From Megalodesulfovibrio gigas DSM 1382 = ATCC 19364 (GTDB lineage Bacteria > Desulfobacterota > Desulfovibrionia > Desulfovibrionales > Desulfovibrionaceae): 64,000 nt of DNA. Each line of letters starts with the position of its first letter. Positions within the stretch are counted from its first letter, which is position 1. The position numbers were made by a program, and so were the translations under genes. Location: assembly GCF_000468495.1 (NCBI RefSeq), contig NC_022444.1, positions 2,459,975-2,523,974 on the forward strand. Direction: 5' to 3'. Positions 27,036-49,800 of the stretch are shown in pieces. The notes beneath the pieces are model-generated. The model worked only from the letters and a program-made list of their open reading frames with translations. It did not search any database and was not told the origin of the DNA.

Positions 27036-27038
27036 GGC

Positions 27039-28500: not shown

Positions 28501-28675
28501 GCTGCACCCCTATTGCCCTCACATTGTACCGCTGGTTCAAGAGAACATTTTCACGCATTAGTGAAACAAAGCAACCTAGACGCAATGCACAGTTTGCGTT
28601 GTAATAGATCGGTACAACGCAATCCACTAAAGCGCTTTAGTGTTTCACAAGCATAAAATATGGTAAGGATGTGCC
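28501..28675. promoter_or_regulatory. Divergent late control region with nested dyads
   Basis: This 175-bp gap separates leftward holin/head/tail genes from rightward terminase/portal genes. It holds the perfect palindrome CACTAAAGCGCTTTAGTG (28625-28642), an inverted repeat GCGTTGTA/TACAACGC (28596-28603 and 28613-28620), and a TTAGTGAAAC half-site near 28558 resembling the TTAGTGTTTC right of the palindrome. Likely a bidirectional late promoter with activator or repressor sites. Confidence 0.65.
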
Positions 28676-30768: not shown

Positions 30769-30786
30769 CACTTCAAGGATATTGAG

Positions 30787-34189: not shown

Positions 34190-35152
34190 CTATCCAAACG
34201 CCCGCCCAAGCCACACCACGCGCCCCACAATCCAGGCCGCAGACCTGTCCTTGGGCAGCATCGTTTGGGTGTCCGTGGGCCGGCTTGCCGCCCACAAGGC
34301 AATGCCGCTGGGCATGCGCAACAGCGTGCGCACCAGCAGTTCCCCAGCCACGGCCACCACATACACCTTGCCACTGGCGGGCTCCACCTGCCCCTGGTCA
34401 AAGACCAGCAAGTCATTGTTCACAATCACATTGTCCATCTCGTTGTTCGTCACCCGCAGGCAGGCCATCCGATCGGGATCGCCAAGGGCCTGCATTGCTT
34501 CCCTATGAAATGCAACCGAAGCCTCGCCGTGATTGATCAATGCACCATGCTCATCCAGGCGGTGCCCGACCAACCGAAGCCGAACCAAAGGCAACCCAGA
34601 GTCAGGGGCTTGCACATCTCGAACCCCATGGGCGGAAGCGCCCGCCGGGGTGATGGCAATGTGTGGGGAGGACGGCCCATAGTAGAGCCAGTCTATAGAA
34701 ACATTAAAATCCTCAGCGATTTTAAAGAACCAGCTAGATGGAAGAGACTTCTTTTCAATTGCCCCGCTGACACTTGCAGGCTTGATCCCCAGAGCTCGCG
34801 CAAGCTCGCTGTAGTTTTTAGCATCAGAAGCCCGCATGAGACGCTCTATTCTTCCTGGCAAGTCAGCAGGTTGCCTGTTCGCCAACTCCTTGGAGAAAGG
34901 AGCACCGAGGGGCTGCGGATCGTCCATGGAGGATTCAGCAGTACGGCCAAAATACAGCCAATCCAGGGAAACATTTTTTTGAGAAGCTATTTTCAGTGGC
35001 CATGTTGGTGGAATCGTCTCGCTGTCGACGGCGCGTTTTACAGATTGAGGCGTTATTTCAAGCGCGCGCGCCAAGTCTGACATGGTATTTCCGTGGATCG
35101 ACTCCAACATCCTTGCGTATAAATCCTTAAAATTCACAGTCTGTTCTGTCAT
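34190..35152 (-). CDS. Prophage repressor, two CI-type HTH domains plus S24-like domain
   Basis: A 320-residue repressor. Two homologous CI-type HTH modules lie at about 12-70 (MSDLARALEITPQSVKRAV) and 100-160 (YSELARALGIKPASVSGAI), each ending in NVS(L/I)DWLY(F/Y)G. Residues 190-320 resemble the S24/LexA dimerisation domain, but the usual GDSM is RVTNNEMD (Glu238 in place of Ser) and the Lys is replaced in ELLVRTLLR, so self-cleavage seems lost. It is divergent from the early genes, as a lysogeny repressor should be. Confidence 0.85.
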   Translation of the reverse strand: MTEQTVNFKDLYARMLESIHGNTMSDLARALEITPQSVKRAVDSETIPPTWPLKIASQKNVSLDWLYFGRTAESSMDDPQPLGAPFSKELANRQPADLPGRIERLMRASDAKNYSELARALGIKPASVSGAIEKKSLPSSWFFKIAEDFNVSIDWLYYGPSSPHIAITPAGASAHGVRDVQAPDSGLPLVRLRLVGHRLDEHGALINHGEASVAFHREAMQALGDPDRMACLRVTNNEMDNVIVNNDLLVFDQGQVEPASGKVYVVAVAGELLVRTLLRMPSGIALWAASRPTDTQTMLPKDRSAAWIVGRVVWLGRAFG

Positions 35153-35290
35153 TATTTTAGCCTCACCCGTAAATTTTCAAATTTTTCTATTGCCAATTTA
35201 ATCTCTAGACTGTATTTCATTAGTCACGACATCGAATGTAGGCCGCAAGGCCTTAATGACAGCAAATAGCTTAAACTGCGGAGCCCCACA
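35153..35290. promoter_or_regulatory. Repressor/early divergent promoter region
   Basis: A 138-bp AT-rich gap between repressor start and first early gene. It includes AAATTTTCAAATTTTT and AGGCC-GCAA-GGCCT (35242-35255), a short hairpin. Operators for the HTH repressor are expected here; none was delimited by eye. Confidence 0.5.
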
Positions 35291-35479
35291 ATGGAAAACA
35301 CCGCCCCCACCGCCCAGCAGTCCGCAACCTCCCTCATCTTCTCGGGAATCTCTTTTGACGGTCTGGCCGCGTACACGCCCGCCGGTCCCGAAGGCGTCAC
35401 CGTCACCACCATCCCCGCCCGCAGCCCCGCAGCCGTCCAGGCTGAAGACGCCGCCGCTCTGAAAGGGTTCATCCTCTAA
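35291..35479 (+). CDS. Small early prophage protein
   Basis: A 62-residue protein, first gene of the rightward early region, with GCGGAG upstream of ATG 35291. Sequence MENTAPTAQQSATSLIFSG then a Thr/Ala-rich part ending ALKGFIL. No family recognised. Confidence 0.45.
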   Translation: MENTAPTAQQSATSLIFSGISFDGLAAYTPAGPEGVTVTTIPARSPAAVQAEDAAALKGFIL

Positions 35480-35562
35480 GAGCCAGATTTAGGCCTGACA
35501 CCTGTCAGGCCGGCCAAGCGGAGCAACACTCGGCACTATCCGGAACAACAAAGGAGCCCACC

Positions 35563-36321
35563 ATGTCTTTCTTCTCCCGTTTCACCACCCCCAAGCCCCA
35601 GCCCGAACCCAACGCCACCCCCAACGCGGAACCCGTCGCCTCCTTGCAGTCCCTGTCCCCGGCCATCGCCGCGGGGCAGCCCCTGCTCCAGGGTCTGGGC
35701 GAAATCAAGTACCTGGAACGCGATGGCGAATTCTGGTTCACCGGCGACCAGCTCGGCCAGTTGCTCGGGTACTCGGATCCTCACAGAAACATTGCCAAGT
35801 TGCACAGCCGCCACGTTCAACAATTACAGGAGCATACTTCGGTGGTCAAATTGACCACCGAAGCAGGCACCCGCAATACCAGGGTTTTTTCTCAGGTTGG
35901 TGCGCTGTACCTGATCATGAAGTCCGACACGGAAAAAGCCAATGAAGTCAGCATGGTTTTCGCCCAGCTCCTCAAGCGGCTGTATGACGGCAAGCTGCAG
36001 GAACACATCGCCTCCCTGCAGGGCGAGATCGAGCTGTTGAAGGTGCAACACCGGGAGGACAAGGAAGCCGCCGTGCGCCTGGCCCTTGGCCTGCATCCCA
36101 GCCGTCGCAAGCACATCCTGCCCGCGGTGCGCTACCGGCGCATGGGCCTGAAGAACCGGGAGATCGGCAAGCTGCTGGACGAGCACGACCGTACCGTCGG
36201 TTCCGCCCTCTCCACCGCCCGCAAGTTGGGCCTGCTGGAGCCCGCCACCCGCCGTGCCCCGGTCATCCGCATGCCCAACCCCTCCCCCAAAACCTCGCGC
36301 CCCAGCGGCAAGGCTGCCTAG
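35563..36321 (+). CDS. Bro-N-type antirepressor-like protein
   Basis: A 252-residue protein. Residues about 48-140 look like a Bro-N domain: IKYLERDGEFWFTGDQLGQL, then HTSVVKLTTEAG and VFSQVGALYLIMKSDTEKAN. The C-terminal part is helical with an HTH-like NREIGKLLDEHDRTVGSAL. Bro-N proteins often act as antirepressors or KilA-type regulators. Within it, ATTACAG and a 12-bp hairpin (35834-35863 region) match the repeats at 33.7 kb. Confidence 0.7.
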   Translation: MSFFSRFTTPKPQPEPNATPNAEPVASLQSLSPAIAAGQPLLQGLGEIKYLERDGEFWFTGDQLGQLLGYSDPHRNIAKLHSRHVQQLQEHTSVVKLTTEAGTRNTRVFSQVGALYLIMKSDTEKANEVSMVFAQLLKRLYDGKLQEHIASLQGEIELLKVQHREDKEAAVRLALGLHPSRRKHILPAVRYRRMGLKNREIGKLLDEHDRTVGSALSTARKLGLLEPATRRAPVIRMPNPSPKTSRPSGKAA

Positions 36322-36331
36322 GAGCACGACC

Positions 36332-36550
36332 ATGGCAACCATCATTGTCTGCGACCAAACCGATAACGCCTTCTGGCGGTTCCTGACCGATGCCTGCCGC
36401 CATGCTGCCAACGCGGAGCACACCAGCGCGATTTTTCGCAGCGATGTCGCTGCCCTGCGTCAGGAACTGGCCGAGCTGCGCCAGGAATTGCGGGCCAGTC
36501 GTGAAGCCAATCCCGCTGGGATTCACCCCTCTTCGACAGGGAGGCCCTAG
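36332..36550 (+). CDS. Small early prophage protein
   Basis: A 72-residue protein from ATG 36332, preceded by AGGAGC. The C-terminal half VAALRQELAELRQELRASRE is a short coiled coil. Its stop abuts the next ATG. Function unknown. Confidence 0.5.
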   Translation: MATIIVCDQTDNAFWRFLTDACRHAANAEHTSAIFRSDVAALRQELAELRQELRASREANPAGIHPSSTGRP

Positions 36551-36856
36551 ATGCACAGCCAACACCCGGCCTCTGGTTTTGAAGGGCAATTCGCACGGCT
36601 CATGCAAGCGATTTCCGCCAGATATGCGGCTGATCTCGCCATCGCCTTAGGCATCACCCCGCAATCGGTCAGCAAAGCGCTCAGCCGCAAGACGATCCCT
36701 CCGGCCTGGTTCTTTGAAATCGCTCAAAAATTCAACGTGTCCGCTGATTGGTTGGCGTTTGGAATAGTCCCACCAATCCTCTGTTCCCGGCCCGACGACA
36801 ACGCTGCTCCACTTCCACCAATCTTCCCCAAGGAGCCCCATCATGACCTTCGATCC
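36551..36856 (+). CDS. CI-type HTH protein lacking its own stop codon
   Basis: ATG 36551 begins a protein whose residues 10-72 (LAIALGITPQSVSKALSRKT ending NVSADWLAFG) closely match the two HTH modules of the prophage repressor. After about residue 95 the frame should end near the next ATG (36843) but has no stop; it stays open in the same frame through the downstream gene at 37202 to 37804. A TGA exists in another frame at 36844. Either a frameshift removed the stop or a 417-residue fusion is made. The end shown is approximate. Confidence 0.55.
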
Positions 36857-37169
36857 CAAAGCCTTGCTTGGGTGGTGTCAGGAAAACCTCGGTATCCAGA
36901 ATGCGCAGGAACTCTCCTTCGAGCTGCGGATCAACCCCAGCGTGGTCAACAAATTCATCAAGGGCGAACGGCCGGACTTCGGCGTCGCGCGCGCCCTGCT
37001 CAAACGCGGCTGCCCGCCGGAGCTGTTGCCCTCACTGCCGATGCACAAGCCCATACTTGGCTGCGTGAACTGCCCGCACAACCCCGCCAACGCCGATGTC
37101 TTGCAGGCCATGTCCGACGTCAAGCCCGCCAAAACCGCCAAACCCAAGCTCGCGCCCAAGGCGGCGTAG
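36843..37169 (+). CDS. Small XRE-like HTH protein
   Basis: A 108-residue protein behind AAGGAGCCCC. Residues 8-60 look like an HTH (AQELSFELRINPSVVNKFIKG); a CVNCPHNPAN segment follows, then a Lys/Ala/Pro-rich tail KPAKTAKPKLAPKAA. Likely an early regulator (Ner-like position), function unproven. Confidence 0.55.
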   Translation: MTFDPKALLGWCQENLGIQNAQELSFELRINPSVVNKFIKGERPDFGVARALLKRGCPPELLPSLPMHKPILGCVNCPHNPANADVLQAMSDVKPAKTAKPKLAPKAA

Positions 37170-37201
37170 CGCCTCATCGTACCAACGCAAAAGGAGACGT
37201 T

Positions 37202-37804
37202 ATGGAACCCCATGCCGACACCGCCCTGCCTGAACTGCCACCCTCCGAGGCCGTGCTCATCGCGTCCACAGAAGTGGACATGGACGGCCGTCCCCTGCGG
37301 GTCATGACCCTGGACTGTCTGGCCGACGCCCTGGAGCTGCATGACAGGCACGATCCGCGCGCCTGGTTCGAGTTCCGCTGCCGGCAGTTCGGGTTTGCCT
37401 GCGGCCGGGACTGGATCGACAGCAGCCCGGACGATCCCCTCATCGGGCTCTCCATGGCCAAGGTGCTGGCGGTGCTGGAGCGCAAAAGCCCGCGCGGCAT
37501 GCTGGTGCATCAGGCCATCATCGCCCATGAACAGCGGCTGTGGGCCTTGCAGCGCATGAGTCTGGTCACGGAATTCGACCCGGACTGCGGCGCGGGTGGG
37601 TTCTGCCTGGGGACGGTGCCGAACTACATCGCCGATGTCGTTGCTGACCAGCCCGACCAGCCCGACCGGCCCGACCAGGCCCCGGAAGACGGCAGCACCA
37701 CCCTGCGCGTCACCGTCCGGCTGCATCCCCTCACGGATCCTACCGACGCCCCCGGCTCGCTCTCCACCGCGTCCTCCACCTCCACCACGCAGGACGCGGC
37801 CTGA
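37202..37804 (+). CDS. Hypothetical early prophage protein
   Basis: A 200-residue protein from ATG 37202 behind AAAGGAGACG. Contains RPLRVMTLDCLADALELHD and RAWFEFRCRQFGFACGRDWI, then a repetitive DQPDQPDRPDQ and a Thr/Ser-rich end. Same frame as the stop-less HTH gene upstream. The stop overlaps the next ATG. Confidence 0.5.
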   Translation: MEPHADTALPELPPSEAVLIASTEVDMDGRPLRVMTLDCLADALELHDRHDPRAWFEFRCRQFGFACGRDWIDSSPDDPLIGLSMAKVLAVLERKSPRGMLVHQAIIAHEQRLWALQRMSLVTEFDPDCGAGGFCLGTVPNYIADVVADQPDQPDRPDQAPEDGSTTLRVTVRLHPLTDPTDAPGSLSTASSTSTTQDAA

Positions 37805-38067
37805 TGAAGCCGGGCCTGCGCCAATACGCCTCCATCCTGACGTCGTCTTCGGCGGCGTCAGGATGGCTGGCCCTGCATGAGGCAGAGGATGTGCCGCCCC
37901 CTGCGCGCACCTGGCCGTGCCGCTGCTGTGGCGTGCACTCCGCCAACCGGTTGCATTGCCCGGATTGCCTGTCCCGCCTGACGCGGCGCGGCGGCCTGGA
38001 TGCGAGCCTGGAGGCCGTGCACGATGGCGGCGATACTCTCTTGGACGACATGGAGGTGGCGCTATGA
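37804..38067 (+). CDS. Small zinc-ribbon-like early protein
   Basis: An 87-residue protein with CRCCGVHSANRLHCPDC, a CxxC-x9-CxxC-type metal site. It overlaps its neighbours by 1 and 4 bp and directly precedes the transposase gene. Function unknown. Confidence 0.55.
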   Translation: MKPGLRQYASILTSSSAASGWLALHEAEDVPPPARTWPCRCCGVHSANRLHCPDCLSRLTRRGGLDASLEAVHDGGDTLLDDMEVAL

Positions 38068-40262
38068 GCATCCTGGCAACCCAGCTCGCCCACGTGCTCT
38101 CCCTCTCGCCCCGCGCCCTGGAACGCCGGGCCGTGGCCGAAGGCTGGCCGGCCCTGTCCATCAAGCCCTTGCGCTTCGCCCTGGCGGAACTCCCGGAGAC
38201 CGTCCGGGCAGCCGTCCGCCAGGCCCAAGCCCAGGGACTGCACCTGGAAACGCCCTTGGCTCTGCCCGGCATGCAGACGTCCTCCCTGGCCATCCGGCAG
38301 CAGGACGTGCCGGCGGAACTGCCCGTCAGCGAGCGCAGCAAGCGCAAGGCCCTGGACCGGCATCGCCTGGGCGAGGCGTTTCAGGAAGCCTTGGACAACG
38401 CCCCGCGAGGCGACAAGGCCCAAGCCGCCAAGGCCTTTGTGCTGGCCTACAATTCTGGGGTGGTGTTCCCGGAAATCCATGCCCGCGTGGGCCGTGTCAG
38501 CGAGGCGTCCTTGCGGTTGTGGTCCAAAACCTACCGCCGCAGCGAGGGCGACTACCTCGCCTTCTGCCCGACGCCACGTCAGATCGGGCTCTCTCTTTCC
38601 ATGGAATATCGGGAGGTCATCTTGCGGTGCTGGCTGCACCCCTCGCGGCCAAGCATCCGCCTGGCGTGGCGCGCCGCCTGCACCGCCCTTGGGATTAAGG
38701 ATGCCCAACATACCAAGGACGCCCAGGAGTCCAAAGACGCCGAGAAAGCGGCGTTGAGCTACGACGTTTGCTACCGCTTCATCAAGCGCTTCGAGGAGCG
38801 CAATTACGACCTGGTCTTGCTCGCACGCTTTGGCGAAAAAGCCTTGAAGGACAAGGCCCTGCCTTACATCACCCGCGACGATTCCGTCTTGCGCGTCGGG
38901 GATGTCGTGGTGGCCGACGGCCATGTCCTCAACTTCACGGTGCGCCACCCGCGCACCGGCAAGCCGGCACGCCTCATGCTGGTCATGATGTACGACTGGG
39001 CCAGCCGTTATCCCGTGGGCTGGCAGATCATGCCCACGGAATCCACCATTGCCGTGGCCGGCGCCCTGCGCATGGCCTGCCAGACCCTGGGCCGGCCCCC
39101 CTTGCACCTGCTCCTGGACAACGGCAAGGCCTTCAAGGCCAAGGTGTTCACCCGCACCAGCCCGGACTTCCAGGACTTTGCCGGGCTCTTCGGCCGCCTT
39201 GGGATCCTGGTGCATTTCGCGGCCCCATACAACGCCCGCGCCAAGGTCATTGAACGCTTCTTCTGGACGCTGCAAACCCAGTTCGAGCCCCTGGTGCCGT
39301 CCTACTGCGGCAGCTCCATCGAGGCAAAGCCGGCCCACCTCATGCGCAATGAAGAGTTTCACCGGCGTTGGCACGAGGCCCGCACCAACAATTGGGTGCC
39401 CACCGTGCGCGAGGCCGCCCACATGCTGGACGCCTACATCCAATGGTACGCCCGCACGCCCCATGACGGCCTGGACGGCATGACCCCCCTGGAAGTCTTT
39501 GAAGCCGGCCTCCCGGAACCCACGCCGGACATGGCCTGGCTGGACCGCGAATTCCTCTGGCGCGAAGAGCGCACGCCCGCCAACTGCCGCGTCCAGCTCT
39601 ATGGCGTGGACTACGAAAGCGATGCCCTCATGGGCATCAAGGTCCCGGTCACTGTCTACTACAACACCGCAGACATGACCCGCGTGGAGATTGCCTTGGA
39701 TGGCCGCAGCCTGGGCGAAGCCCTGCCCGTGCAGGCCGTGCATCCCCTGGTGGCCATGCTGGAAGACGGCGACGCCGCCTTGTCCGATCTCAAGGAGGCA
39801 CTGGCCCGGCAACGCGGCATGGCCAAAAAGGCAAAAGCCGACCTGGCCGAGGCCCTGGGCGAAACAGGCCGGGATCTGGCTGAGGTGCTGGACTGGAAGC
39901 CAACCATGGCCGTTGCCGCAGTCAAGCCCAAGGCCCTGCCTGCCGGCCAGGTAGCAGCCCAGCCCATCCCGGCCACCTCTCCCGAGGAAACCGCGCGCCT
40001 GCGCAGCCTGGCCGTCGCGGCCCAGCAGGACCAGCAGAGCCGGGCAGAACCGGCCAGCGACCGGCCAGCGTTCTTTGTTTCCGATCTCGCCCGATATGAA
40101 TGGATTTTCCGCGCCCAGGCTGCAGGCAAGGCCGTCTCAGCCGATGACGCGGCCTGGCGCGCTGAATTCGAACAATCCAACGCCTTCAACCCGTACCGCC
40201 AGCGCTTCGCGGATCTGGCCCAAGTCCTCGCCCGCAAGGACAAGCAGCGTGCGGCAGCCTAG
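38064..40262 (+). CDS. MuA-like DDE transposase
   Basis: A 732-residue transposase. The N-terminus (VLSLSPRALERRAVAEGWPA) is the Mu-type DNA-binding domain; the RNase H core has Asp285 (VVADGHVL), Asp352 (LLLDNGKAF) and Glu397 (AKVIERFF) as the catalytic triad, followed by a Mu-type C-terminal beta-barrel and a helical tail for MuB contact. Residues 210-228 hold a KDAQ-type repeat insertion. ATG 38064 overlaps the prior stop (ATGA). It drives integration and replicative transposition. Confidence 0.93.
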   Translation: MSILATQLAHVLSLSPRALERRAVAEGWPALSIKPLRFALAELPETVRAAVRQAQAQGLHLETPLALPGMQTSSLAIRQQDVPAELPVSERSKRKALDRHRLGEAFQEALDNAPRGDKAQAAKAFVLAYNSGVVFPEIHARVGRVSEASLRLWSKTYRRSEGDYLAFCPTPRQIGLSLSMEYREVILRCWLHPSRPSIRLAWRAACTALGIKDAQHTKDAQESKDAEKAALSYDVCYRFIKRFEERNYDLVLLARFGEKALKDKALPYITRDDSVLRVGDVVVADGHVLNFTVRHPRTGKPARLMLVMMYDWASRYPVGWQIMPTESTIAVAGALRMACQTLGRPPLHLLLDNGKAFKAKVFTRTSPDFQDFAGLFGRLGILVHFAAPYNARAKVIERFFWTLQTQFEPLVPSYCGSSIEAKPAHLMRNEEFHRRWHEARTNNWVPTVREAAHMLDAYIQWYARTPHDGLDGMTPLEVFEAGLPEPTPDMAWLDREFLWREERTPANCRVQLYGVDYESDALMGIKVPVTVYYNTADMTRVEIALDGRSLGEALPVQAVHPLVAMLEDGDAALSDLKEALARQRGMAKKAKADLAEALGETGRDLAEVLDWKPTMAVAAVKPKALPAGQVAAQPIPATSPEETARLRSLAVAAQQDQQSRAEPASDRPAFFVSDLARYEWIFRAQAAGKAVSADDAAWRAEFEQSNAFNPYRQRFADLAQVLARKDKQRAAA

Positions 40263-40275
40263 GAGAATCATCCCG

Positions 40276-40995
40276 ATGAATCACGCAGTGTTTGTTGAAA
40301 CAGCCAACCACGTAAAATTGTTGGAAGCCATGACCATCCTGCAGGACGCTGCCCAGGGCATGCCCGGCCTGGGCCTCGTGTGGGGCAGGGCCGGCCGCGG
40401 CAAGACCGAGAGTTGCCGGACCTACGCCGTGCGCTCCGGAGCCAAATACCTGCGAGTCATGGAAGGCTGGAGCCCGGCTGCCATGTGTCGCGCCCTGGCC
40501 GCGCTCTTGGTGCCTGCTGCGGAACCGCGGACCATTGAGCAAAGCAAGCGGCTGATTCTCGCCGCCTTGGACGCCCGGCGCGCCGTGGTCATTATGGATG
40601 AAGCGGACCGCCTGCGCCACATCTCCCTCATAGAGCACTTGCGCGACATCCACGACATCACCGGCGCGCCGGTTGTCCTGGTGGGAGAGGAAGCCCTCTT
40701 CGGCATGATCAACGCCCGCCGCCGCATCTGGTCCCGTGTCACGCAATGCGTGGAATTCGGCCCCATCACCCCGGAAGACGTGACGGTCTACGGCGGCAAG
40801 GCCGCCGGCCTGGACGTGGCCGACGTCGCCCACACCTTGTGCGAGCGTGCCGGCGGGGACTTCCGTCTGGTGTGCCGGGACATGCTGGCCCTGGAACGTC
40901 TGGGAAAGGCGTCCGGCGTCCAGACAATCACCCCGGCCATGATCGCGGCGCTGCCATCCCTGCAACCCTCTGGAGGCCTCCATGGGCGTGCGTAA
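40276..40995 (+). CDS. MuB-like AAA+ ATPase, target-capture protein
   Basis: A 239-residue ATPase. Walker A GRAGRGKT at 37-44, Walker B VVIMDEADRL at about 104-113, and a C-terminal helical domain with FRLVCRDMLALERL. MuB-type proteins bind target DNA and activate the transposase. It follows the transposase by 13 bp with its own AGGAGAATCATCCCG site. It overlaps the next gene by 14 bp. Confidence 0.88.
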   Translation: MNHAVFVETANHVKLLEAMTILQDAAQGMPGLGLVWGRAGRGKTESCRTYAVRSGAKYLRVMEGWSPAAMCRALAALLVPAAEPRTIEQSKRLILAALDARRAVVIMDEADRLRHISLIEHLRDIHDITGAPVVLVGEEALFGMINARRRIWSRVTQCVEFGPITPEDVTVYGGKAAGLDVADVAHTLCERAGGDFRLVCRDMLALERLGKASGVQTITPAMIAALPSLQPSGGLHGRA

Positions 40996-41599
40996 CGAGA
41001 TCATCCAGGCCGTGGCCGCCTTTCTTGGGGCAATGGGCAAGTCCTCCATCAAGCAGGTGCGCGAGGAATTGCGCTTGACGGAAGACCAGGCCAAGGACGC
41101 CGTGCACGCACTGGTGGAGCGCGGGCGCGTCGTGAAAACCGGCCGTGGCGTGTACGCGTGGCAGGCATCCTCCGGGGTGTCCGGATCCGTGGCCGCCCGT
41201 GTCTGGCATGCCATGCTCATCAATACGCCGGCCTGGACTCTGGACGATATCGCCCGCCAGGCCGGCACCACTATCAACTACGTCCGGCGCTGCCTGGTCT
41301 ACTGGCGCAAGGCCGGCCTGGTGGAGCAGTACGGGCAGCGCAGCTTGCCCGAAGGCGGCCGGATCAAGCTCTTCCGCACCACGGCCAAGGCCAAGGACTA
41401 TCCCAACCCCAGCGTGGATACGCCCTGGGCGCCTGACGCACTCACCGTGCAGGCCGTCGAACTGATCCGCCTGCTGGCCACCGGCCAGGCCGCCCGCATT
41501 CCCAAGGACTGCGCCCGTGCCCAGGCTCTGTGCGAGGTCATTGCCCAGGAACTGCGGCAAATGAACACCCAACATGCGGCCGCCCAGTGCGGCAGATAA
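40982..41599 (+). CDS. Winged-helix early protein
   Basis: A 205-residue protein with two winged-helix-like parts: SSIKQVREELRLTEDQAKDA and WTLDDIARQAGTTINYVRRC, then a helical C-terminus. Likely DNA-binding, perhaps in replication or regulation. No precise family. Confidence 0.6.
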   Translation: MGVRNEIIQAVAAFLGAMGKSSIKQVREELRLTEDQAKDAVHALVERGRVVKTGRGVYAWQASSGVSGSVAARVWHAMLINTPAWTLDDIARQAGTTINYVRRCLVYWRKAGLVEQYGQRSLPEGGRIKLFRTTAKAKDYPNPSVDTPWAPDALTVQAVELIRLLATGQAARIPKDCARAQALCEVIAQELRQMNTQHAAAQCGR

Positions 41600-41608
41600 G
41601 GAGCATCT

Positions 41609-42226
41609 ATGACCACTGCTGTTGATGTCCCACCTGGATACATGCGGGACGCCCTCGGCCGCCTGGTTCCGGAAAGTATCGTGTCCGACAAGGACAAGAT
41701 GGAAGACGAGCTGGTCCGCGAGCTGGTTTCCAAGGCGTTGGCTGTCCAGGAATCGATCAAGGAATTCCGCAGCTACGCCTTCCAGAACGTGGACGCCTTC
41801 ATCGCCCTGGTTGCGGACAAATTCGGCGCCACCATCGGCGGTCGAAAGGGCAATGCACAGCTCGACACCTTTGATCGGGAGCTTCGGATTCAGGTGCAGG
41901 TTTCTGAACGCGTGGCCTTTGGCGAAGAAATCGAGGCTGCCAGAGCACTCATTGAAGAGTGCCTGCAGGACTGGACCAAGGGCAGCCCCGACGAGTTGAA
42001 GGCGCTCATCCAGGACGCCTTTCAGAAGGACAAGGCCGGCGCCCTGAACGCCGTGCGCATCCTTTCCTTGCGCAACCTGGACATCAAGGAACCGCGCTGG
42101 ATCAAGGCCATGCAGGCCATCAACGAGGCGCTGCAGGTCTCCAGTTCCAAGCGACTGATCAGGCTCTACAGGCGCAATGCCGAGGGCAGGTACGATCCCG
42201 TCACCCTCGACATGAGCTCGCTCTAA
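41609..42226 (+). CDS. DUF3164 family protein
   Basis: A 205-residue protein of the DUF3164 (sulfate/phage early) family, common beside MuB. Seen: VPPGYMRDALGRLVPES, AFQNVDAFIALVADKFGA, FDRELRIQVQVSERVAFG. Biochemical role unknown. Confidence 0.78.
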   Translation: MTTAVDVPPGYMRDALGRLVPESIVSDKDKMEDELVRELVSKALAVQESIKEFRSYAFQNVDAFIALVADKFGATIGGRKGNAQLDTFDRELRIQVQVSERVAFGEEIEAARALIEECLQDWTKGSPDELKALIQDAFQKDKAGALNAVRILSLRNLDIKEPRWIKAMQAINEALQVSSSKRLIRLYRRNAEGRYDPVTLDMSSL

Positions 42227-42244
42227 AAACAGGAGGATAGCACC

Positions 42245-42541
42245 ATGACATTCCAAGACTTTACAGCCCGCATCGTTGGCCGGCTCAGGCAAAGCGGCGA
42301 GACGCTGCACATCAGCAAGTCGGCAGTGGAAGCAACGCTCAAGGCTATGGCCGCGGAAACCGCCGCCGTCCTGGCCGAAGGCGGCCGCGTGCAGCTCCCC
42401 GGCCTGGGTGTGTTTGAAACTCAGGCCCGCGCCGCCCGCCAGGGCCGCAACCCCCGGACCGGCGAAGCCATCGCCATCCCTGCCCGCAAGGCCGCAACCT
42501 TCACCCCGGGCAAGGCCCTCAAGGAGACCATCAATGCCTGA
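42245..42541 (+). CDS. HU-family DNA-binding protein
   Basis: A 98-residue HU/IHF-type protein. The C-terminal signature GRVQLPGLGVFETQARAARQ followed by GRNPRTGEAIAIPA is diagnostic, with an end FTPGKALKETINA. It probably bends phage DNA in transposition complexes, as host HU/IHF do for Mu. It overlaps the next gene by 8 bp. Confidence 0.92.
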   Translation: MTFQDFTARIVGRLRQSGETLHISKSAVEATLKAMAAETAAVLAEGGRVQLPGLGVFETQARAARQGRNPRTGEAIAIPARKAATFTPGKALKETINA

Positions 42542-42695
42542 TGATCCCATTATCCGCAGTCTCGAAGAACTGGCCGAGCTGGAGAACGTCTGGGCCGATG
42601 CCATGGACGACGGCGTGCCTGGTGCCGCGACTGTGCTGGACCTCATCCTGTGGCTGACGGACCCAGGCCTCGATCCGCCCATGCCCGAATCTTAA
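42534..42695 (+). CDS. Small acidic early protein
   Basis: A 53-residue acidic peptide, MPDDPIIRSLEELAELENVW and ending GLDPPMPES. It overlaps the HU gene by 8 bp, which supports translation. Function unknown. Confidence 0.5.
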   Translation: MPDDPIIRSLEELAELENVWADAMDDGVPGAATVLDLILWLTDPGLDPPMPES

Positions 42696-42705
42696 AAAAA
42701 GAAGA

Positions 42706-42741
42706 GGGGCGCTTACGCAGGCCCATCTGCGTAAGCGCCCC
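42706..42741. terminator. Strong 15-bp hairpin
   Basis: GGGGCGCTTACGCAG (42706-42720), loop GCCCAT, CTGCGTAAGCGCCCC (42727-42741). A run of seven A precedes it, so it has a U tract on the leftward strand; rightward it lacks one and may only attenuate. Confidence 0.6.
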
Positions 42742-42783
42742 AGCACCAGGAGAAACACACGTCCAACCATCCCGGGAGTAGCT

Positions 42784-43230
42784 ATGGCACAGGTAAAAAA
42801 TCGACGCCAGGTGGAAACACTTCCCCCAAAAGACCCGCGCCGCACCGCACTCCTCAAAAAAGTGCATGTGCTCAAGCGCCAGCAAGGCATGGATGACGCC
42901 GCGTGGCGGACCATGCTCGCCGAAAATTTTCAGGTCTCCAGTTCGGGGGACCTGCCCGTAGAAAAATTGGTGGCGCTCGCCAATCACCTGGGCGGCGTGC
43001 TGCCGGCGCAACAGCCTGCACGCCGTGCGTCCGGGGCTCAATCCAGGGCCACGCAACGGCAAATCAACTATATCCGCAAGTTGTGGAGTGAGTTTGCGAG
43101 AAGCAAAGACGTGGGGTCCCTGGAAGTGTGGCTGAACCGATTTCACAAGGTCGCCCGGCTGGAATGGCTGCCGCGCGAGACGGCAAGCAAGGTCATCGCA
43201 ATACTGGAGCGCGAGACGGGGCATGCATGA
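42784..43230 (+). CDS. gemA: GemA-like regulatory protein (Mu gp16)
   Basis: A 148-residue protein of the GemA family: LLKKVHVLKRQQGMDDAAWR near the N-terminus and ATQRQINYIRKLWSEFARS near the C-terminus are characteristic. In Mu, GemA alters host gene expression and DNA supercoiling. Overlaps the next gene by 8 bp. Confidence 0.82.
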   Translation: MAQVKNRRQVETLPPKDPRRTALLKKVHVLKRQQGMDDAAWRTMLAENFQVSSSGDLPVEKLVALANHLGGVLPAQQPARRASGAQSRATQRQINYIRKLWSEFARSKDVGSLEVWLNRFHKVARLEWLPRETASKVIAILERETGHA

Positions 43231-43540
43231 TGACATCCTGGCACGGATTCGCACCCGCCATGGCACGGTGCATCGTTTCTGCCTGGCCGCCGGCATTGGG
43301 CGAAGCACGGTCTACCAGGTGCTCGCCGGACGCTATGCAGGCAACACCGCGCGTCAGCTCCGGCGTATTGAAGCGGCGCTGGCAAACCAGATGGAGGCGG
43401 GGCGCATGGCGCAGGTTGCCGAGGCCATTCAAGCCGTGGCCTGCGCCCGCTGCGCCGCCGGTCCCATGCGGCGATGCGACGCCTGCCGGGAGCTCTTCCT
43501 TGCCCAGGCTCAGGCCGTGCTGGAGGTGATGGCCCAATGA
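43223..43540 (+). CDS. HTH early protein
   Basis: A 105-residue protein whose first 50 residues form an HTH (HRFCLAAGIGRSTVYQVLAG), then a segment CARCAAGPMRRCDACRELF with four cysteines (CxxC pairs). Possible zinc-binding regulator. Overlaps both neighbours. Confidence 0.55.
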   Translation: MHDDILARIRTRHGTVHRFCLAAGIGRSTVYQVLAGRYAGNTARQLRRIEAALANQMEAGRMAQVAEAIQAVACARCAAGPMRRCDACRELFLAQAQAVLEVMAQ

Positions 43541-43845
43541 CGAAACTGGACGGGATTTACGGAGAGCTGGCCGCCGTGGTGGGCGAGGAAAACGCACTCA
43601 AGATCGCCACGGTCTTCGGCGGACAGTACATTTACTTCCACAAGCTGGACCGGATCGAACGCGCGGCCCGCAATGAGGCAATCGTACGTGAGTTTACCGG
43701 CTCAAACCATCGCGCGCTCGCCGAAAAGTACAACCTGTCCACCCAGCGCATCCGGGCAATCGTCGCCAGCACAAAAAAGACAACACCTGCACAATCTGAA
43801 GAAAAACAAAATCCTATGCGCCAGGGCAACCTGCTGGAGTTGTAA
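43537..43845 (+). CDS. mor: Mor-type middle transcription activator
   Basis: A 102-residue Mor-family protein at the end of the early operon: GEENALKIATVFGGQYIYFH (dimerisation part) and HRALAEKYNLSTQRIRAIV (HTH). Mor activates the middle promoter in Mu, leading to late transcription. ATG 43537 overlaps the previous stop. The next gene starts within its stop codon. Confidence 0.85.
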   Translation: MTKLDGIYGELAAVVGEENALKIATVFGGQYIYFHKLDRIERAARNEAIVREFTGSNHRALAEKYNLSTQRIRAIVASTKKTTPAQSEEKQNPMRQGNLLEL

Positions 43846-44654
43846 TGCCTGAAACCACCCACCTCCTTATCGACGTGAGCACCGCCGCGGCAGATACAAA
43901 ACTCATCACCATGGAACAGGATCCAGAGTCAGAAGCCTGCATCCGTGTCTTCGCCGCCTGCCAGTATGCACTGATGTCATCCTGCCGCGGAACCATTCGG
44001 AAAATAGGCCGTGATCTCAGGTTTAATCACGCCGAATATCTGACATTTACCATGAGTGACGCAGCCAGCCTGCAATACGTCCCTGCAGATCAATCCATAG
44101 CCTGCACCTGGATTGGCGTTGATCATGGGCAAATATGGACGCTGGCCGGCAGCGATATCACGCTGTCACAGAGCGTAGTTGGTGTGCTGCTGGTGGAATA
44201 TGCCGTGTCGTATGACCGCTGGCAACTGCCTGTTTCCGCACTGGCCTTGCCCCGCATCGCTGTGGTGGCGTCCTGCCGGGATGCACTGGCGTCCCTGGGA
44301 ATCGATCCTGAATCCAAGAGCACAACGGCAACGACCAGCACTCTCGCAACATCCAGTGCATCTTCGGCATACATGGTATCCGACGGCAGCAACCCTGCCG
44401 AGGACCTCACATTGAATGATGCCGCTGCCGAAGCCACCGTCTATCTGCATCTATCCGTCATCAACAAATGTACCCAGACACCCATTGCCAACGCATATGT
44501 GCAGACGTCCCTGGGAAACGGCTACACGGATGCCCAAGGCTATGCGATGTTTGGCCCGGGACGGCGGGGTCAGCGTGTCACATTGCGCATCACCTCCCCT
44601 GAATCCACCCCCAGCTATGAAGACGTCCTGCATAATGACTGGGTGACGTTATGA
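43845..44654 (+). CDS. Unknown prophage protein with Ig-like C-terminal domain
   Basis: A 269-residue protein coupled to mor (TAATG) and to the next gene (ATGA). The N-terminal 140 residues are beta-rich (TWIGVDHGQIWTLAGSDITL); a Ser/Thr linker (STTATTSTLATSSASS) follows; the last 65 residues (NKCTQTPIANAYVQTSLGNG, then TDAQGYAMFGPGRRGQRV) look like a carboxypeptidase-regulatory/Ig-like fold. Likely a virion surface or tail-tip protein; no match recognised. Confidence 0.6.
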   Translation: MPETTHLLIDVSTAAADTKLITMEQDPESEACIRVFAACQYALMSSCRGTIRKIGRDLRFNHAEYLTFTMSDAASLQYVPADQSIACTWIGVDHGQIWTLAGSDITLSQSVVGVLLVEYAVSYDRWQLPVSALALPRIAVVASCRDALASLGIDPESKSTTATTSTLATSSASSAYMVSDGSNPAEDLTLNDAAAEATVYLHLSVINKCTQTPIANAYVQTSLGNGYTDAQGYAMFGPGRRGQRVTLRITSPESTPSYEDVLHNDWVTL

Positions 44655-46975
44655 ACGACAAATACGTGGATATCTACGTCTGCTGCGCCAATAGCACCCA
44701 ACGGGGCTCCCTACGGCAACGTGTGTGTGACGATGCGCCCAGGGTGCAGCGACAGGGGGATGTGCTGACCATCCAGGCGCAGCCGGCCGGCTCGGGCCGC
44801 CCTGGCGATGTGTATGTCACCGTCGCAACCCGCCCGCGTCAGGCCACACAGTATTGCGACCTCGCTGACCCACGATTGACCGTCGGCCAAGCAGCACAGG
44901 CAGTTTACGGCAGTGATGATATCGCGCCCCTCCCATATGCAGTGGTGCAGTTCAACAATCCGGATGACTGCCGCTGGCGCGGGTCCCGTGCGATCAAGCA
45001 CGGCTACGATGCTGCCGCCGGGCCGCTGGGCATCCAGGTTGGCGTCAGTTCCCAACCCTCCATGCAGGGTGGAGACGCAGAGAGCGAGCAACTCATCCCC
45101 GGAGCCGGTGCCCTGATCCGTTCCGATCTCCAGAATGTGTGCGTGGCGCCGGGCGAATGGATCGAACCTGCCATGACCATGTTCGACGGCATCGAGTATG
45201 CCATGCACACCGGCGAAGGCACACATTTTGCCACGGCATGTCTCGCCGGTGGCAGAGTGCTGGACGTGCTGGGAAAGCATGGCAGTCAGGACGTGCAATA
45301 CCTCGTGGCAGTGATCGGCCCGGCAGGTGCCATCCTGCAAAAATGCATGTGCACCCCCAGTGATTACGCGGAGTGGGCCATTGGCGATTGGGTTATTGTC
45401 GCCATCGGCCTCGACGACTGCGATGATCAAGCCATGACGCCGGTAGACATATATAATGATGGGACAGGCTCCACAACGCGGGTTGATCTGACAGGAGGCA
45501 TCATCCTGCCCCTGGCCGCAGGTGCATACATCGCTGAATCCACGCCGTATCAACCATGGCCAGTGCCTCGCGTCACACGGCACCCCATGGGAGACGTGCT
45601 GGCGTTGTGCCTGCGCACGGGCACAATCGCCGCTGTCAACCGAAACGGCACCATGGATATTGAGATGCCCTGGGGCATGGCCTACGACGTCCCTGCGCAT
45701 TACCACTGCCCGGAGGCTGCCACCGTGGCCGGGGGCCACACGGCCTTCCAACCAGGCGACGCCGTTATTGTAGCCTCCACCCGCGCGCAGGAAGTGGCGC
45801 ATGTCGTTTTCGGATTTGCCGATGGCGCTCCCCGGCCATGTTCCGAGTATATTGTCATATCAACAGGCATCCCCAATCATGGAGGGCGGGAGTTCTACTT
45901 AGTCTGGGATGCCGTGGCCGGTCGGCCGGCTGCCGATTTACCTGATGGTAATGGAGGAGTGCTCCCGCCCAGCGTCTTTCCCTGCACCCGGGATGTCATC
46001 TTGCCCTGGCTGGAGCAGAGCCGCTCCGTATCTGTTGAGGATCAGATGGACAACCTGCACGCGGCAGAGCGCCTGGGCTGGCAGGAGACCGCCTCAGGAC
46101 GCGTGGATGCATGGCCCTCGGCAGGACGCATGTGCGCCGACTTGGCTTGCGATCCCCCACACGAGTGCCCTTGGTACAACGCATATGTAGACGGTGAACG
46201 ACTGGGCGGACACTGCGGATATTGTCATGACGAAATACAACAACCCAATGCAGTCAGCGGATACGACACCGCCTCCATGGACCGCCAAGTGACCCATCAA
46301 TTCATAAATGAGGAAGGACACATCCATGTGCTGCAATACTGGCATGAGGAACATCCGTTTATCCAGAACGAGAGGGAATCATCATTATCCAGGCCTCCCT
46401 ACTCGGTGCGGTGCGTCTGGGCTGAGTTCGAAAGCGTGATCCAGGCGTCCCGAACATATTCGGCACGCCGTGAGGTGTTTTTCGCAACGGACCTCTCGGA
46501 CAATTTGGTGCTGTTTGAAGAAGAAATAACAGACCGCGTCACATTTCCAGGGGTTGGCTTCCGGCCAGACTGCGAATGGACGGAAAAAACAACCGTCCGC
46601 AAGCCTGCCGCGCCGCAGGGAGATGAGGATGTCCGGGAATGGACCTGGAATGATCGTACGGTGACCGTCAATGGCTTCGGCCTGCGCACGCACCGATCAT
46701 GGTTGTTCGCATACGTCATGGTATCAAGGCGATGGTGGGTGGAGCCCTACGTGAATAGTGAAGCAAAGCACGTACACCCAGGCTTCGACATTGTCGTGGC
46801 CGCGGGCAGCGGCAGTGTGTTGGACGATCCATTGACTGTCTCGCCATTCAGTTTGCCAACAGATGCGGCACTGGAAATGGCGTTGACTGCATTGGTGCAG
46901 GCTGCGTTTGACGATGCCGAGTTCACCACTGCCATCCACACCGAAAATGCATTCCGATGGGAGGTCCGGTCATGA
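44651..46975 (+). CDS. Large unknown prophage protein, possible tail tip/fibre
   Basis: A 774-residue protein, no signal peptide or membrane segment, rich in Cys, Trp and His. Segments include VVQFNNPDDCRWRGSR, VLDVLGKHGSQDVQYLVAVI, HGGREFYLVWDAVAGRP, CPWYNAYVDGERLGGHCGYC and FRPDCEWTEKTTVRKPA. The two CxxC-like clusters suggest metal binding. It is coupled at both ends to small partners, so the three form a unit after mor. A tail-tip or receptor-binding role is inferred from size and place only. Confidence 0.6.
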   Translation: MNDKYVDIYVCCANSTQRGSLRQRVCDDAPRVQRQGDVLTIQAQPAGSGRPGDVYVTVATRPRQATQYCDLADPRLTVGQAAQAVYGSDDIAPLPYAVVQFNNPDDCRWRGSRAIKHGYDAAAGPLGIQVGVSSQPSMQGGDAESEQLIPGAGALIRSDLQNVCVAPGEWIEPAMTMFDGIEYAMHTGEGTHFATACLAGGRVLDVLGKHGSQDVQYLVAVIGPAGAILQKCMCTPSDYAEWAIGDWVIVAIGLDDCDDQAMTPVDIYNDGTGSTTRVDLTGGIILPLAAGAYIAESTPYQPWPVPRVTRHPMGDVLALCLRTGTIAAVNRNGTMDIEMPWGMAYDVPAHYHCPEAATVAGGHTAFQPGDAVIVASTRAQEVAHVVFGFADGAPRPCSEYIVISTGIPNHGGREFYLVWDAVAGRPAADLPDGNGGVLPPSVFPCTRDVILPWLEQSRSVSVEDQMDNLHAAERLGWQETASGRVDAWPSAGRMCADLACDPPHECPWYNAYVDGERLGGHCGYCHDEIQQPNAVSGYDTASMDRQVTHQFINEEGHIHVLQYWHEEHPFIQNERESSLSRPPYSVRCVWAEFESVIQASRTYSARREVFFATDLSDNLVLFEEEITDRVTFPGVGFRPDCEWTEKTTVRKPAAPQGDEDVREWTWNDRTVTVNGFGLRTHRSWLFAYVMVSRRWWVEPYVNSEAKHVHPGFDIVVAAGSGSVLDDPLTVSPFSLPTDAALEMALTALVQAAFDDAEFTTAIHTENAFRWEVRS

Positions 46976-47214
46976 AACAGCTGTCGCCGGAGTTATTCAA
47001 CAGCAAGGACAAAGGACAGTTGACCGGCACAGTTGCCGGTTTCGTCGGAGATCGTGCCCTGCTCAAAGTCGGTTCAACCACGCTGACGGTGCGGATCACT
47101 GGTGCCCGGCCTGCCCTGGGCGCAAAAGTGGTAGCCATGGCCACGCCTGCAGGGTATATCTGCGTCGGTTCGGTCGGCGCGGCAACCCAACCGAAAAAAA
47201 TTTTTATAGACTAG
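46972..47214 (+). CDS. Small beta-barrel-like protein after the large unknown gene
   Basis: An 80-residue protein from ATG 46972 overlapping the previous stop (ATGA). Alternating strands (LTGTVAGFVGDRALLKVGST, TLTVRITGARPALGAKVVAM) suggest an OB-like barrel. The 3' end (IFID) lies in an AT-rich TTTTTATAGA copy of the edge repeat. Confidence 0.55.
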   Translation: MKQLSPELFNSKDKGQLTGTVAGFVGDRALLKVGSTTLTVRITGARPALGAKVVAMATPAGYICVGSVGAATQPKKIFID

Positions 47215-47356
47215 GCGTTCGCTTTTTATAAAAATGACCACAAAATGAGGCCAATTTGGCCTCATTTTTATAAAAATGGTTTTTTGGCGAAAAAAATTTT
47301 ATTCCCACGATATGACTGAACTTTCCCCCCTCTCCCCCAGATTCCCTTTTTATAAT
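47201..47356. repeat. Right-edge AT-rich repeats
   Basis: TTTTTATAGA (47201), TTTTTATAAA (47223), TTTTTATAAA (47265) and TTTTTATAAT (47347) recur here, with spacings of 22, 42 and 82 bp. They match the two copies at the left prophage edge and suggest multiple transposase sites at the right end. Confidence 0.5.
47236..47269 (+). terminator. Terminator at the right prophage edge
   Basis: ATGAGGCCAA (47245-47254) pairs with TTGGCCTCAT (47256-47265) followed by TTTT; upstream AAAA makes it bidirectional. Confidence 0.7.
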
Positions 47357-47360
47357 TCTC

Positions 47361-47886
47361 GCTGCAAAGCCGTAGACGCACCCACTCCCGATTCCAGCTT
47401 CCGGTTTTTGAGTGCCAGGCACTTCTTGCGCGATGGCAGCAAGGAGGCGCGGGCCTGCCTTGGCCGCCGTGTCTGCCACATGGTGCCATGCGCGCGGGAA
47501 TCGGTACGGGAAAACTCCCGGCGAATCAGGAAGATGTGCGAGGCAATGAAAAATGTGGCGTCAACTACGCCCAGACGATGATTTTTCCCTTGCAGAACCC
47601 CGCCACCTTATGGCTTATTGGGGCCAGCGACGGCGACGGCGACGGAGGCGGCAGGGGGCTGGCTGCCAACACCGATCCCGGCACCTCCCCTCGCGCAGGC
47701 CGTGGCCTCCCAGCCTCGCTCCTCGCTCGCTTGGGGCGTGGGCACGAGCAAAGACATCGAAAGTGGCATTATTCACATTCAGGATTGGCTATACCAGAGC
47801 CCCAAAAAATAAATACCCCGCGTTGCTAGGCAAATATCCAAATACAAACGCATGACCAATCACGCGTCATTACAGAGGGAGGCCTC
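47361..47886. other. Gap with decayed coding traces
   Basis: No intact gene is convincing here. Rightward, MIFPLQNPATLWLIG in one frame appears to continue in another frame as PLAQAVASQP and SKDIESGIIHIQDWLYQSPK, ending at 47812; the break sits at a GCGACG repeat (47632-47652). This looks like a frameshifted gene remnant. The sequence then becomes AT-rich ahead of the TIR cassette. Confidence 0.35.
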
Positions 47887-48333
47887 ATGCAACAGAATGG
47901 CATACTAACAATAGACTCAACTAACATTCAGACTCATCTATCAATTCTGCAAGGCATTATCAGCAGACTCGCTGGAAATAGTGCCCTGTGCAAGACACTG
48001 TGCATAACTCTCACTGCTGCAGTGGTTGCGATTGCCGTAACCAGTGAAAACACCACTAGTGTCCTATTAATCGCTGTTTTTGTAACGTTATTATTTTGCG
48101 CTTTAGATGTTTTTTACTTATCCCTTGAAAGGGAATATAGGAATATGTACAACAATTCTGTCGAAAAACTCCATGATAACACATTCTCGAAAGACGAATT
48201 ATTTGTCGCAAAGAGGTCCAACCGAGGCTTATCGGCCGCTAATTGCTGGGATGCGTTGAAATCATGGTCAATTAGCTTTTTTTATCTTGGTATAATTATC
48301 TCAATATTTTTCGTATGTTGTATAGCCCAATAA
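47887..48333 (+). CDS. Small membrane protein of a TIR cassette
   Basis: A 148-residue protein behind GGAGGCCTC. Three transmembrane segments are visible: about 37-53 (TLCITLTAAVVAIAVTS), 57-77 (SVLLIAVFVTLLFCALDVFY) and 126-147 near the C-terminus, with a soluble stretch between the second and third (LEREYRNMYNNSVEKLHDN). Much more AT-rich than the flanking genome. Layout resembles SLATT/Cap15-like membrane effectors; it may disrupt membranes when TIR signals accumulate. Family not firmly identified. Confidence 0.65.
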   Translation: MQQNGILTIDSTNIQTHLSILQGIISRLAGNSALCKTLCITLTAAVVAIAVTSENTTSVLLIAVFVTLLFCALDVFYLSLEREYRNMYNNSVEKLHDNTFSKDELFVAKRSNRGLSAANCWDALKSWSISFFYLGIIISIFFVCCIAQ

Positions 48334-48343
48334 GGAAAACAAG

Positions 48344-48856
48344 GTGGCAAGACGCGTATTCTTCAGTTTTCATTACCAGAATGACATTTGGCGTGTTGCT
48401 CAAATACGTAACTGTTGGGTCACTAAAGAAAGAACAGCTGCTGGATTTTGGGATGCAGCAGAATGGGAGAGTATCAAGCGCCGCGGCGACGAGGCAATTA
48501 AATCATGGATCAATTCGCAATTATTCAACACATCTGTAACTATTGTTTTAATAGGAGAAGAGACATTTAAAAGAAAATTCGTTCGATATGAAATCTTGCA
48601 GAGCCACGCGAGGGGCAATGGATTGCTTGGAATTTTTATTCACAACCTGAAAGATCGCCTTGGAAACACTTCACCAAAAGGCGCCAACCCCTTCTCTGTG
48701 CTAACTGCGCATCACAACGGAAGAAATGCTAATTTGTCTGATATCTATCCCGTCTATGATTGGGTGATTAACAACGGTCAAGCCAACCTTGCAGCATGGA
48801 TCGAAAATGCTGCATCAAAAGCAGGGAGAGGCACTCTACATGGTATTCATTACTGA
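48344..48856 (+). CDS. TIR-like protein (ThsB/DUF1863 type)
   Basis: A 170-residue protein from GTG 48344, behind AAGGAAAAC. The start RRVFFSFHYQNDIWRVAQIR with RGDEAIKSWINSQL and VTIVLIGEETFKRKFVRYEI is the MTH538/DUF1863 TIR-like fold used by Thoeris ThsB sensors; the Glu in RYEI could be catalytic. ThsB proteins sense phage and make a cyclic ADP-ribose-type signal. It lies 10 bp after the membrane gene and overlaps the next TIR gene. Confidence 0.82.
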   Translation: MARRVFFSFHYQNDIWRVAQIRNCWVTKERTAAGFWDAAEWESIKRRGDEAIKSWINSQLFNTSVTIVLIGEETFKRKFVRYEILQSHARGNGLLGIFIHNLKDRLGNTSPKGANPFSVLTAHHNGRNANLSDIYPVYDWVINNGQANLAAWIENAASKAGRGTLHGIHY

Positions 48857-49412
48857 GCACGATTTGAGGCTAGCCAAAACTGAACACCATAAAAGCTTTT
48901 TTGTGAAAAAAATCTATGCTCATAGGCGAGACCCTGATACTAATATTTTTTTATCACATAGTCATCACGACAAGGATCTAGCGTTAGGCATCAAATATGT
49001 CCTAGAAAAACTCGACTACACTATATATATTGACTGGCTTGACAGCAACTTATCTCCAGTCACCGACATCACAACAGCAAAAGCATTAAAACAGAAAGTA
49101 AATGAATCAGACCTTGTTCTTTTGCTTGCGACAAATAACGCTTTGAAATCTCGCTGGGTGCCTTGGGAAATTGGATTAGCCGATGGGCTAAAATCTCCCG
49201 ACAGAATTGCAATCATACCTGTCGCTGACAGCACTGGTGTTCACACAAAAAACGAATATCTACAACTATATCAATCATTCGAATACAATTCAAAAGAAGA
49301 GCTTATAGTGAAGTCCTCGATACAGACTGCCAAGAAATCAGATGGAATTATTCTTGAGTCGTCATCTAAAGCAGACATTCTCGTCAAAGACTTCCTTAAG
49401 AAACGTCATTAG
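48840..49412 (+). CDS. TIR-domain protein
   Basis: A 190-residue protein from ATG 48840, which follows GGGAGAGG and overlaps the previous gene by 17 bp. Canonical TIR boxes: NIFLSHSHHDKDLALGIKYV, then ESDLVLLLATNNALKSRWVP and WEIGLADG with the catalytic-type Glu. It differs from its neighbour, giving two distinct TIR proteins in one operon. Likely an NAD-processing sensor or effector of phage defence. Confidence 0.82.
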   Translation: MVFITEHDLRLAKTEHHKSFFVKKIYAHRRDPDTNIFLSHSHHDKDLALGIKYVLEKLDYTIYIDWLDSNLSPVTDITTAKALKQKVNESDLVLLLATNNALKSRWVPWEIGLADGLKSPDRIAIIPVADSTGVHTKNEYLQLYQSFEYNSKEELIVKSSIQTAKKSDGIILESSSKADILVKDFLKKRH

Positions 49413-49800
49413 AGCCCATTGAATTGTATCGTTTTGCATTCTTGCATTGGCAAAAATCACTTTTGAGACCTGTGAGTGATTCACATAACATGGATTATGA
49501 CGAGTATCTCATTTGCCCACTTCAATCGTGTCCGCTATGTGTCCGCTCTCATATTTCCCCCCTGCGCAACCTCTTGAAATCATGCGCAGCGCGGCACGGC
49601 ATGCACAAAACGAATGTGCGGCGGAGTGACGGGGAATGCTCGGAATGTCAGAGGGTTAAGCGTTATTTTTTTGTTTGTTGTGGATTGGGTGCCATGCAAG
49701 AGGTCATAGAGATAATTCCCGCCAGCGCAACTATCGCATGACGGTTTCAGTGGGATAGCCAATCAATCGCCATCCCCCCGGAGAAAGTGGCGGGGCGCCA
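49413..49800. other. Gap between TIR cassette and host genes
   Basis: A 388-bp stretch with no convincing gene. It carries two copies of GTGTCCGCT (49528 and 49539) and shifts from AT-rich to GC-rich near 49770, where host sequence appears to resume. It may contain an old element boundary. Confidence 0.4.

Follow-up and report, generated by a model that had tools for sequence, protein, structure and literature searches.

A small membrane protein with TIR partners in Megalodesulfovibrio gigas: a cassette that probably works like Thoeris

The 64,000-nucleotide stretch of Megalodesulfovibrio gigas DSM 1382 = ATCC 19364 analysed here (contig NC_022444.1, positions 2,459,975 to 2,523,974; hereafter the window) carries a cassette of three genes, memb, tirB and tirC. 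The product of the first, a small membrane protein, is the constant element across related loci; its TIR partners are diverse and keep their catalytic glutamate. In relatives of the cassette it stands in the slot held by ThsA in rhizobia. Lacking ThsA, the cassette falls outside the definition of Thoeris; its mode of action is probably Thoeris-like. The reading that we favour, and consider reasonably likely, is a Thoeris-type signalling module in which ThsA is replaced by memb, which would read an NAD-derived signal and damage the membrane.

The cassette and its surroundings

The open reading frames of the window gave again the coordinates, the 10-bp gap and the 17-bp overlap (between tirB and tirC) that the first-pass annotation had assigned to the three genes. 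The features are as follows.

13870..49790, no strand: stretch between conserved flanks with phage-type genes, the cassette at its right end; context, outside the mechanism
47873..47883, + strand: probable ribosome-binding stretch of memb, purine-rich (gagggagg), called from the sequence
47887..48333, + strand: memb, ATG start, 148 aa; helical protein with three transmembrane helices, proposed membrane effector; PADLOC PDC-M50A
48334..48343, + strand: 10-bp gap between memb and tirB, part of the tirB ribosome-binding region (aaggaaaacaag)
48344..48856, + strand: tirB, GTG start, 170 aa; ThsB-type TIR, catalytic Glu83; PADLOC PDC-M50B / ThsB PDLC00431
48840..49412, + strand: tirC, ATG start, 190 aa; canonical TIR (TIR_2; ThsB PDLC00436), catalytic Glu110

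Purine-rich stretches lie upstream of all three starts, with cagggagagg just upstream of the tirC ATG; an alternative TTG start of tirC at 48789 would give a protein of 207 aa. The cassette had been described as far more AT-rich than its surroundings, and its GC content is indeed 40.1% (38–43% in the single genes) versus 63.3% in the remainder of the window, where the lowest value for a stretch of the same length is 53.2%. From the last small frame on the phage side to the cassette, ∼670 bp (47215–47886) hold no obvious gene; they include an inverted repeat near 47225–47280, the two arms of which lie around gaggccaatttggcctc.

That the cassette lies at a prophage's right edge, as proposed, is a reasonable view, since the congener G459 shares the flanks without the cassette. 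PHROG matches at 14.5–41.6 kb include terminase, portal, head, tail, endolysin, anti-repressor and transposase. The left flank matches G459 up to ∼13870 (the end of tRNA-Ala) and the right flank from 49801; the cassette was not found in this congener, the contigs of which break at both flanks of the phage-gene stretch, with no empty site seen there. A search for att repeats joining the end of tRNA-Ala to the right edge gave 9-mers only, and neither end of the phage could be placed exactly.

Both TIR assignments of the first-pass annotation hold. The second gene had been called a ThsB-type (DUF1863) TIR, DUF1863 being the earlier name of the Pfam family ThsB_TIR, and tirB matches that family (PF08937) with an E value of 1.5e-24; its closest solved relatives, at E ∼1e-39, are PDB 9b7d (named ThsB1, E 9.9e-40) and 6lhy. 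Within PADLOC-DB, tirB scores 219.5 bits with PDC-M50B (E 6.7e-66) and about equally, 226.2 bits, with ThsB PDLC00431. The third gene, annotated as a canonical TIR with its Glu, matches Pfam TIR_2 (E 6.7e-12), has that residue at E110 counted from the ATG, and has ThsB PDLC00436 as its top PADLOC-DB model. The ThcB4 protein of type III Thoeris (NCBIfam) was rejected for tirC, at 22.4 bits versus a cut-off of 220.

The membrane protein and its relatives

The 148-residue membrane protein predicted earlier is borne out by an AlphaFold2 model that is all-helical and confident (pLDDT 92.3), with two long helices (residues 12–52 and 56–96), a short one (117–124) and a last one (127–147). Six residues, Q22, R27, K36, D74, L78 and E81, are invariant in alignments of 75–79 sequences and sit on both long helices. 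Judged by position, helices 1 and 2 packed antiparallel would set R27 opposite E81 and K36 near D74; provided that helix 1 has its N-terminal half inside, these pairs would be located at the cytoplasmic end. At one conserved position the protein of the window has Leu38 versus Trp in 96% of its relatives, which counts against the Thoeris-type reading.

In PADLOC-DB, memb matches PDC-M50A (PDLC04686, E 2.3e-27); all four PDC-M50A models were matched, and PDC-M50A was matched by all 75 aligned memb sequences. In PADLOC-DB 2.0.0 the phage defence candidate PDC-M50 consists of PDC-M50A and an adjacent PDC-M50B, here memb and tirB. The pair is already catalogued as a candidate, without description in that database, and the cassette of the window adds to it the second TIR, tirC. 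A literature search that reached few of the subscription papers gave no mechanism or description for the PDC-M50, 8xMP or Thc genes.

No Pfam or NCBIfam family was found above the cut-off for memb, nor an NCBIfam family for its relatives. A PDB sequence search gave no match, and a Foldseek search with the model gave nothing significant in PDB or among viral models; the resulting lack of a solved relative, by sequence or by fold, counts against the Thoeris-type reading, as does the absence of any domain recognisable as ligand-binding (neither SLOG nor macro nor CARF). Membership in the 8xMP family (PF24838) was rejected (22.1 bits versus a cut-off of 30; hhalign probability 0.1%).

The 8xMP proteins nevertheless offer a comparison, since in two loci (L138:1007–1953 and L139:1017–1947) a ThsB_TIR gene lies directly upstream of one. 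They too are small membrane proteins with a predicted helix order like that of memb, yet memb falls below the Pfam cut-off and hhalign finds no relation; the model of the L138 protein has a pLDDT of just 72.6. This protein has no PADLOC match and represents a second family of small membrane proteins paired with TIR.

A scan of GTDB contigs from seed memb relatives yielded 131 relatives, with 80 loci kept. According to the record titles, they come from Acidobacteria, many Proteobacteria, Actinobacteria, Cyanobacteria, Chloroflexi, Bacteroidales, Chlorobium, Brocadia, Verrucomicrobia, Brevibacillus, Latescibacteria and a Methanosarcinales archaeon; plasmid-borne relatives extend the range to haloarchaea and Ligilactobacillus.

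TIR partners and the slot of ThsA

The set of loci used for the analysis of gene neighbourhoods comprises 98 relatives and the window. It was gathered mainly by memb homology (L015 entered via tirB), and TIRs were detected with profiles grown from the proteins of the window. A TIR is present in 83 of these 99 loci, which are partly non-independent (L010 and L041 are near copies, as L012, L039 and L040 seemingly are too). The distance to memb is at most 150 bp in 80 loci, and in 69 the genes lie within 20 bp or overlap; TIR and memb share one same-strand gene run in 76. Among control genes, defined as non-family genes more than 3 kb away and drawn solely from the flanks of the same loci, which counts against the comparison, 7 of 381 have a TIR within 150 bp. 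Hence the co-occurrence that had been put forward as a check on the first-pass reading is found, and memb is no chance neighbour of TIR genes.

The trio itself, the recurrence of which in other genomes was also in question, is found again in L010, L015 and further loci. The most frequent order is TIR then memb (37 loci), and since the most frequent unit is memb with one TIR, the second TIR is regarded as an optional addition; at least two TIR frames per run occur in 25 loci, a few of them probably split genes. The partners belong to several TIR classes and include a TIR/SEFIR-TPR protein (L053) and a Roc-COR-TIR protein (L058). Because the TIR partners vary and memb is constant, memb would be the shared output. 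The catalytic Glu, present in both TIRs of the cassette as in TIR-signalling defence in general, is kept in all 104 TIRs in which that alignment column is filled; TIR chemistry therefore matters.

Several of these neighbourhoods have features of their own. The Roc-COR GTPase-TIR fusion lies at L058:187–2208, near memb, on an Acaryochloris contig. Plasmid p1 of Vibrio chagasii carries two adjoining memb systems, each with different TIR partners (L017:5977–10188). A HIT-domain gene adjoins the memb-TIR pair in haloarchaeal and Dietzia plasmids (L104, L115, L117), recalling ThsC, which has been proposed for some Thoeris systems (PMC8565338).

Sixteen of the 99 loci have no TIR match in the stretch covered, which counts against the Thoeris-type reading and for which reason memb may at times act without a TIR, or with an unlinked one. 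A few of these loci are truncated by contig ends, and the others are mainly from cyanobacteria and Chloroflexota. In L043 a TIR/SEFIR-TPR protein without a profile match adjoins memb; in L006, where a tirB relative begins, and in L046 the contig edge falls inside the next gene. Four cyanobacterial memb genes (L068, L073, L083, L090) have no TIR in the stretch covered. At L077:4387–7444, with no TIR match, memb follows an AAA ATPase (AAA_21, AbiEii-like) and a 315-aa protein with no family assignment, which points to a possible non-TIR partner.

A plasmid search with tirB led to rhizobial operons of the order TIR > SIR2 protein > TIR; in the two examined (L106 and L107) the SIR2 protein carries SIR2_2 and STALD. 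The Sinorhizobium operon L106 reads TIR(PDLC00431) > ThsA(PDLC00407, 4.8e-152) > TIR(PDLC00436), so that its TIRs share their best ThsB models with tirB and tirC, respectively. The same TIR classes thus flank or accompany either ThsA or memb. In L010, L021, L024 and L041 the order is TIR > memb > TIR, and memb therefore occupies the ThsA slot; the order in the window differs, with memb first, followed by tirB and tirC. A further arrangement, TIR > 386–388-aa TIR > third gene, was seen at L102:3001–5314, L108:2802–5405 and L114:3001–5362, the third gene in L102 and L108 encoding a SLOG cluster3 protein, another effector choice with the same TIR class.

Mapping the memb label onto the tirB tree takes 6 changes, and a single clade of memb-partnered TIRs is rejected (p-AU ∼1e-112); the memb-linked L008 is sister to the ThsA-linked L109 with support 100/99. 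The plasmid loci L115, L116 and L117 were counted as memb-bearing. The tree is midpoint-rooted and has only 5 ThsA-linked rows, which counts against the comparison; it gives the swaps no direction.

The first-pass annotation had seen no ThsA-like SIR2 or macro-domain effector in the cassette, and profile searches extend this to the genome, which returned no STALD, no ThsA_Macro and no full-length ThsA (PDLC00407). Nor is a ThsA-like gene required elsewhere: STALD was found in none of 50 memb genomes by a search that was positive in all three plasmids with ThsA, ThsA_Macro was found in one of the 50, and some of these genomes gave partial matches to the SIR2 half of ThsA only. Together with the TIR co-occurrence, the absence of STALD supports the earlier reading of a Thoeris-related TIR–membrane module.

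Among the described systems, the cassette resembles type I Thoeris (SIR2-STALD ThsA and ThsB) in having both TIR classes, with two ThsB TIRs; in the rhizobial type I operons, as in several relatives of the cassette, the effector sits between two TIRs. Unlike in type I, the effector is a 148-aa membrane protein and no SIR2-STALD ThsA is present. With type II (TM-macro ThsA and ThsB; His-ADPR) it would share a TIR signal passed to a membrane-acting effector (PMC11204291, PMC12847820), whereas memb has three TM helices and no macro domain. In comparison with type III, tirC scores far below the ThcB4 cut-off, and in comparison with type IV, Pfam detects no caspase-like effector among the three genes. 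Type I ThsA is driven by 3'cADPR, type II ThsA by His-ADPR with perturbation of the membrane, and in type IV N7-cADPR acts on a caspase-like protease (PMC12847820; PMC11204291).

Proposed mode of action

Since the pairing of TIR and memb recurs across bacteria and archaea, the cassette probably serves as an anti-phage alarm with a signal that takes effect at the cell membrane. Phage infection would activate one or both TIRs, which would turn NAD+ into an ADP-ribose-type signal; memb would sense this signal with its conserved pair of cytoplasmic helices and would oligomerise or open, with the result that the inner membrane would be depolarised or breached and the infected cell would halt before any phage is released. 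With two TIRs that differ in their surfaces, one effector may answer a broader range of phage triggers. As tirB is a member of the ThsB class that partners SIR2-STALD ThsA, the signal would most likely be 3'cADPR or something closely related. We infer the defence activity, the ligand and the pore of the cassette. That memb answers a TIR-made signal is suggested by its constancy, by the variety of its Glu-keeping partners and by the exchange with ThsA in one slot; that it may open a pore and damage the membrane is suggested by its topology and by precedents, such as the TM effector of type II Thoeris (PMC11204291) and Cam1, which depolarises the membrane. Cam1 and Csx28 serve CRISPR systems as membrane effectors and are small TM proteins tied to membrane depolarisation in phage defence (PMC10808066); no CARF domain was found in memb, unlike in these proteins, and the resemblance is one of mode only.

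TIR assemblies might instead gate memb by contact, binding its cytoplasmic face directly and opening or clustering it, with NAD+ cleavage being secondary. Genes that overlap or abut in 69 loci, as in obligate complexes, would suit such gating, as would self-assembly, a common mode of action of TIR domains, and the lack of a known nucleotide-binding domain in memb. It is nonetheless unlikely, given that one memb family serves 124-aa ThsB-like, TIR-TPR and Roc-COR-TIR proteins, for which a shared small molecule is easier to envisage, that the catalytic Glu is invariant, and that the same TIR class serves SIR2-STALD ThsA, known to be activated by a diffusible signal.

It is quite unlikely that the TIRs themselves arrest the cell by NAD+ depletion, with memb sensing, anchoring or regulating instead of killing. 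TIR NADases can themselves be effectors (PMC12847820), tirC is a canonical TIR, and the 25 loci with at least two TIR frames per memb would agree with such a role; however, memb takes the place of ThsA between TIRs of the same classes, it is the constant part of the system and the TIR the variable one, and nucleotide-signalling defence typically has its output through small multi-TM proteins.

The position at the edge of a phage-gene region would accord with superinfection exclusion, in which the cassette would act on behalf of the resident prophage, stopping DNA from entering at the membrane and leaving the cell alive; factors of this kind are commonly membrane proteins. We regard this as very improbable, because relatives lie mostly outside viral collections (4 loci in all in IMG/VR, and no tirB relative among 50,697 phage records) and TIRs with an invariant Glu imply signalling. 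Accidental adjacency within unrelated AT-rich cargo, which the high AT content and the mobile context alone would permit, is refuted by the co-occurrence and by the recurrence of the trio, and its probability is negligible.

The preferred reading, a TIR-made signal read by memb, may also be put in a broader form, which we offer tentatively and with less than even confidence: an undescribed Thoeris type would extend across numerous bacterial phyla and into some archaea, and its ThsB-class TIRs would send an NAD-derived signal to new three-TM effectors that bind it directly through the cytoplasmic helix pair, without a known nucleotide-binding domain. If the preferred reading is right, the Thoeris principle of a TIR signal with a swappable effector has a widespread branch with a very small membrane output, and phage sponges against Thoeris signals would be predicted to blunt the memb-TIR module. 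Since TIRs of these classes have ThsA as their partner in other loci, the system would then provide a direct route to asking how a membrane protein without a known nucleotide-binding domain could read a TIR product. For a catalogued and so far undescribed defence candidate, the reading given here supplies a proposed mechanism.
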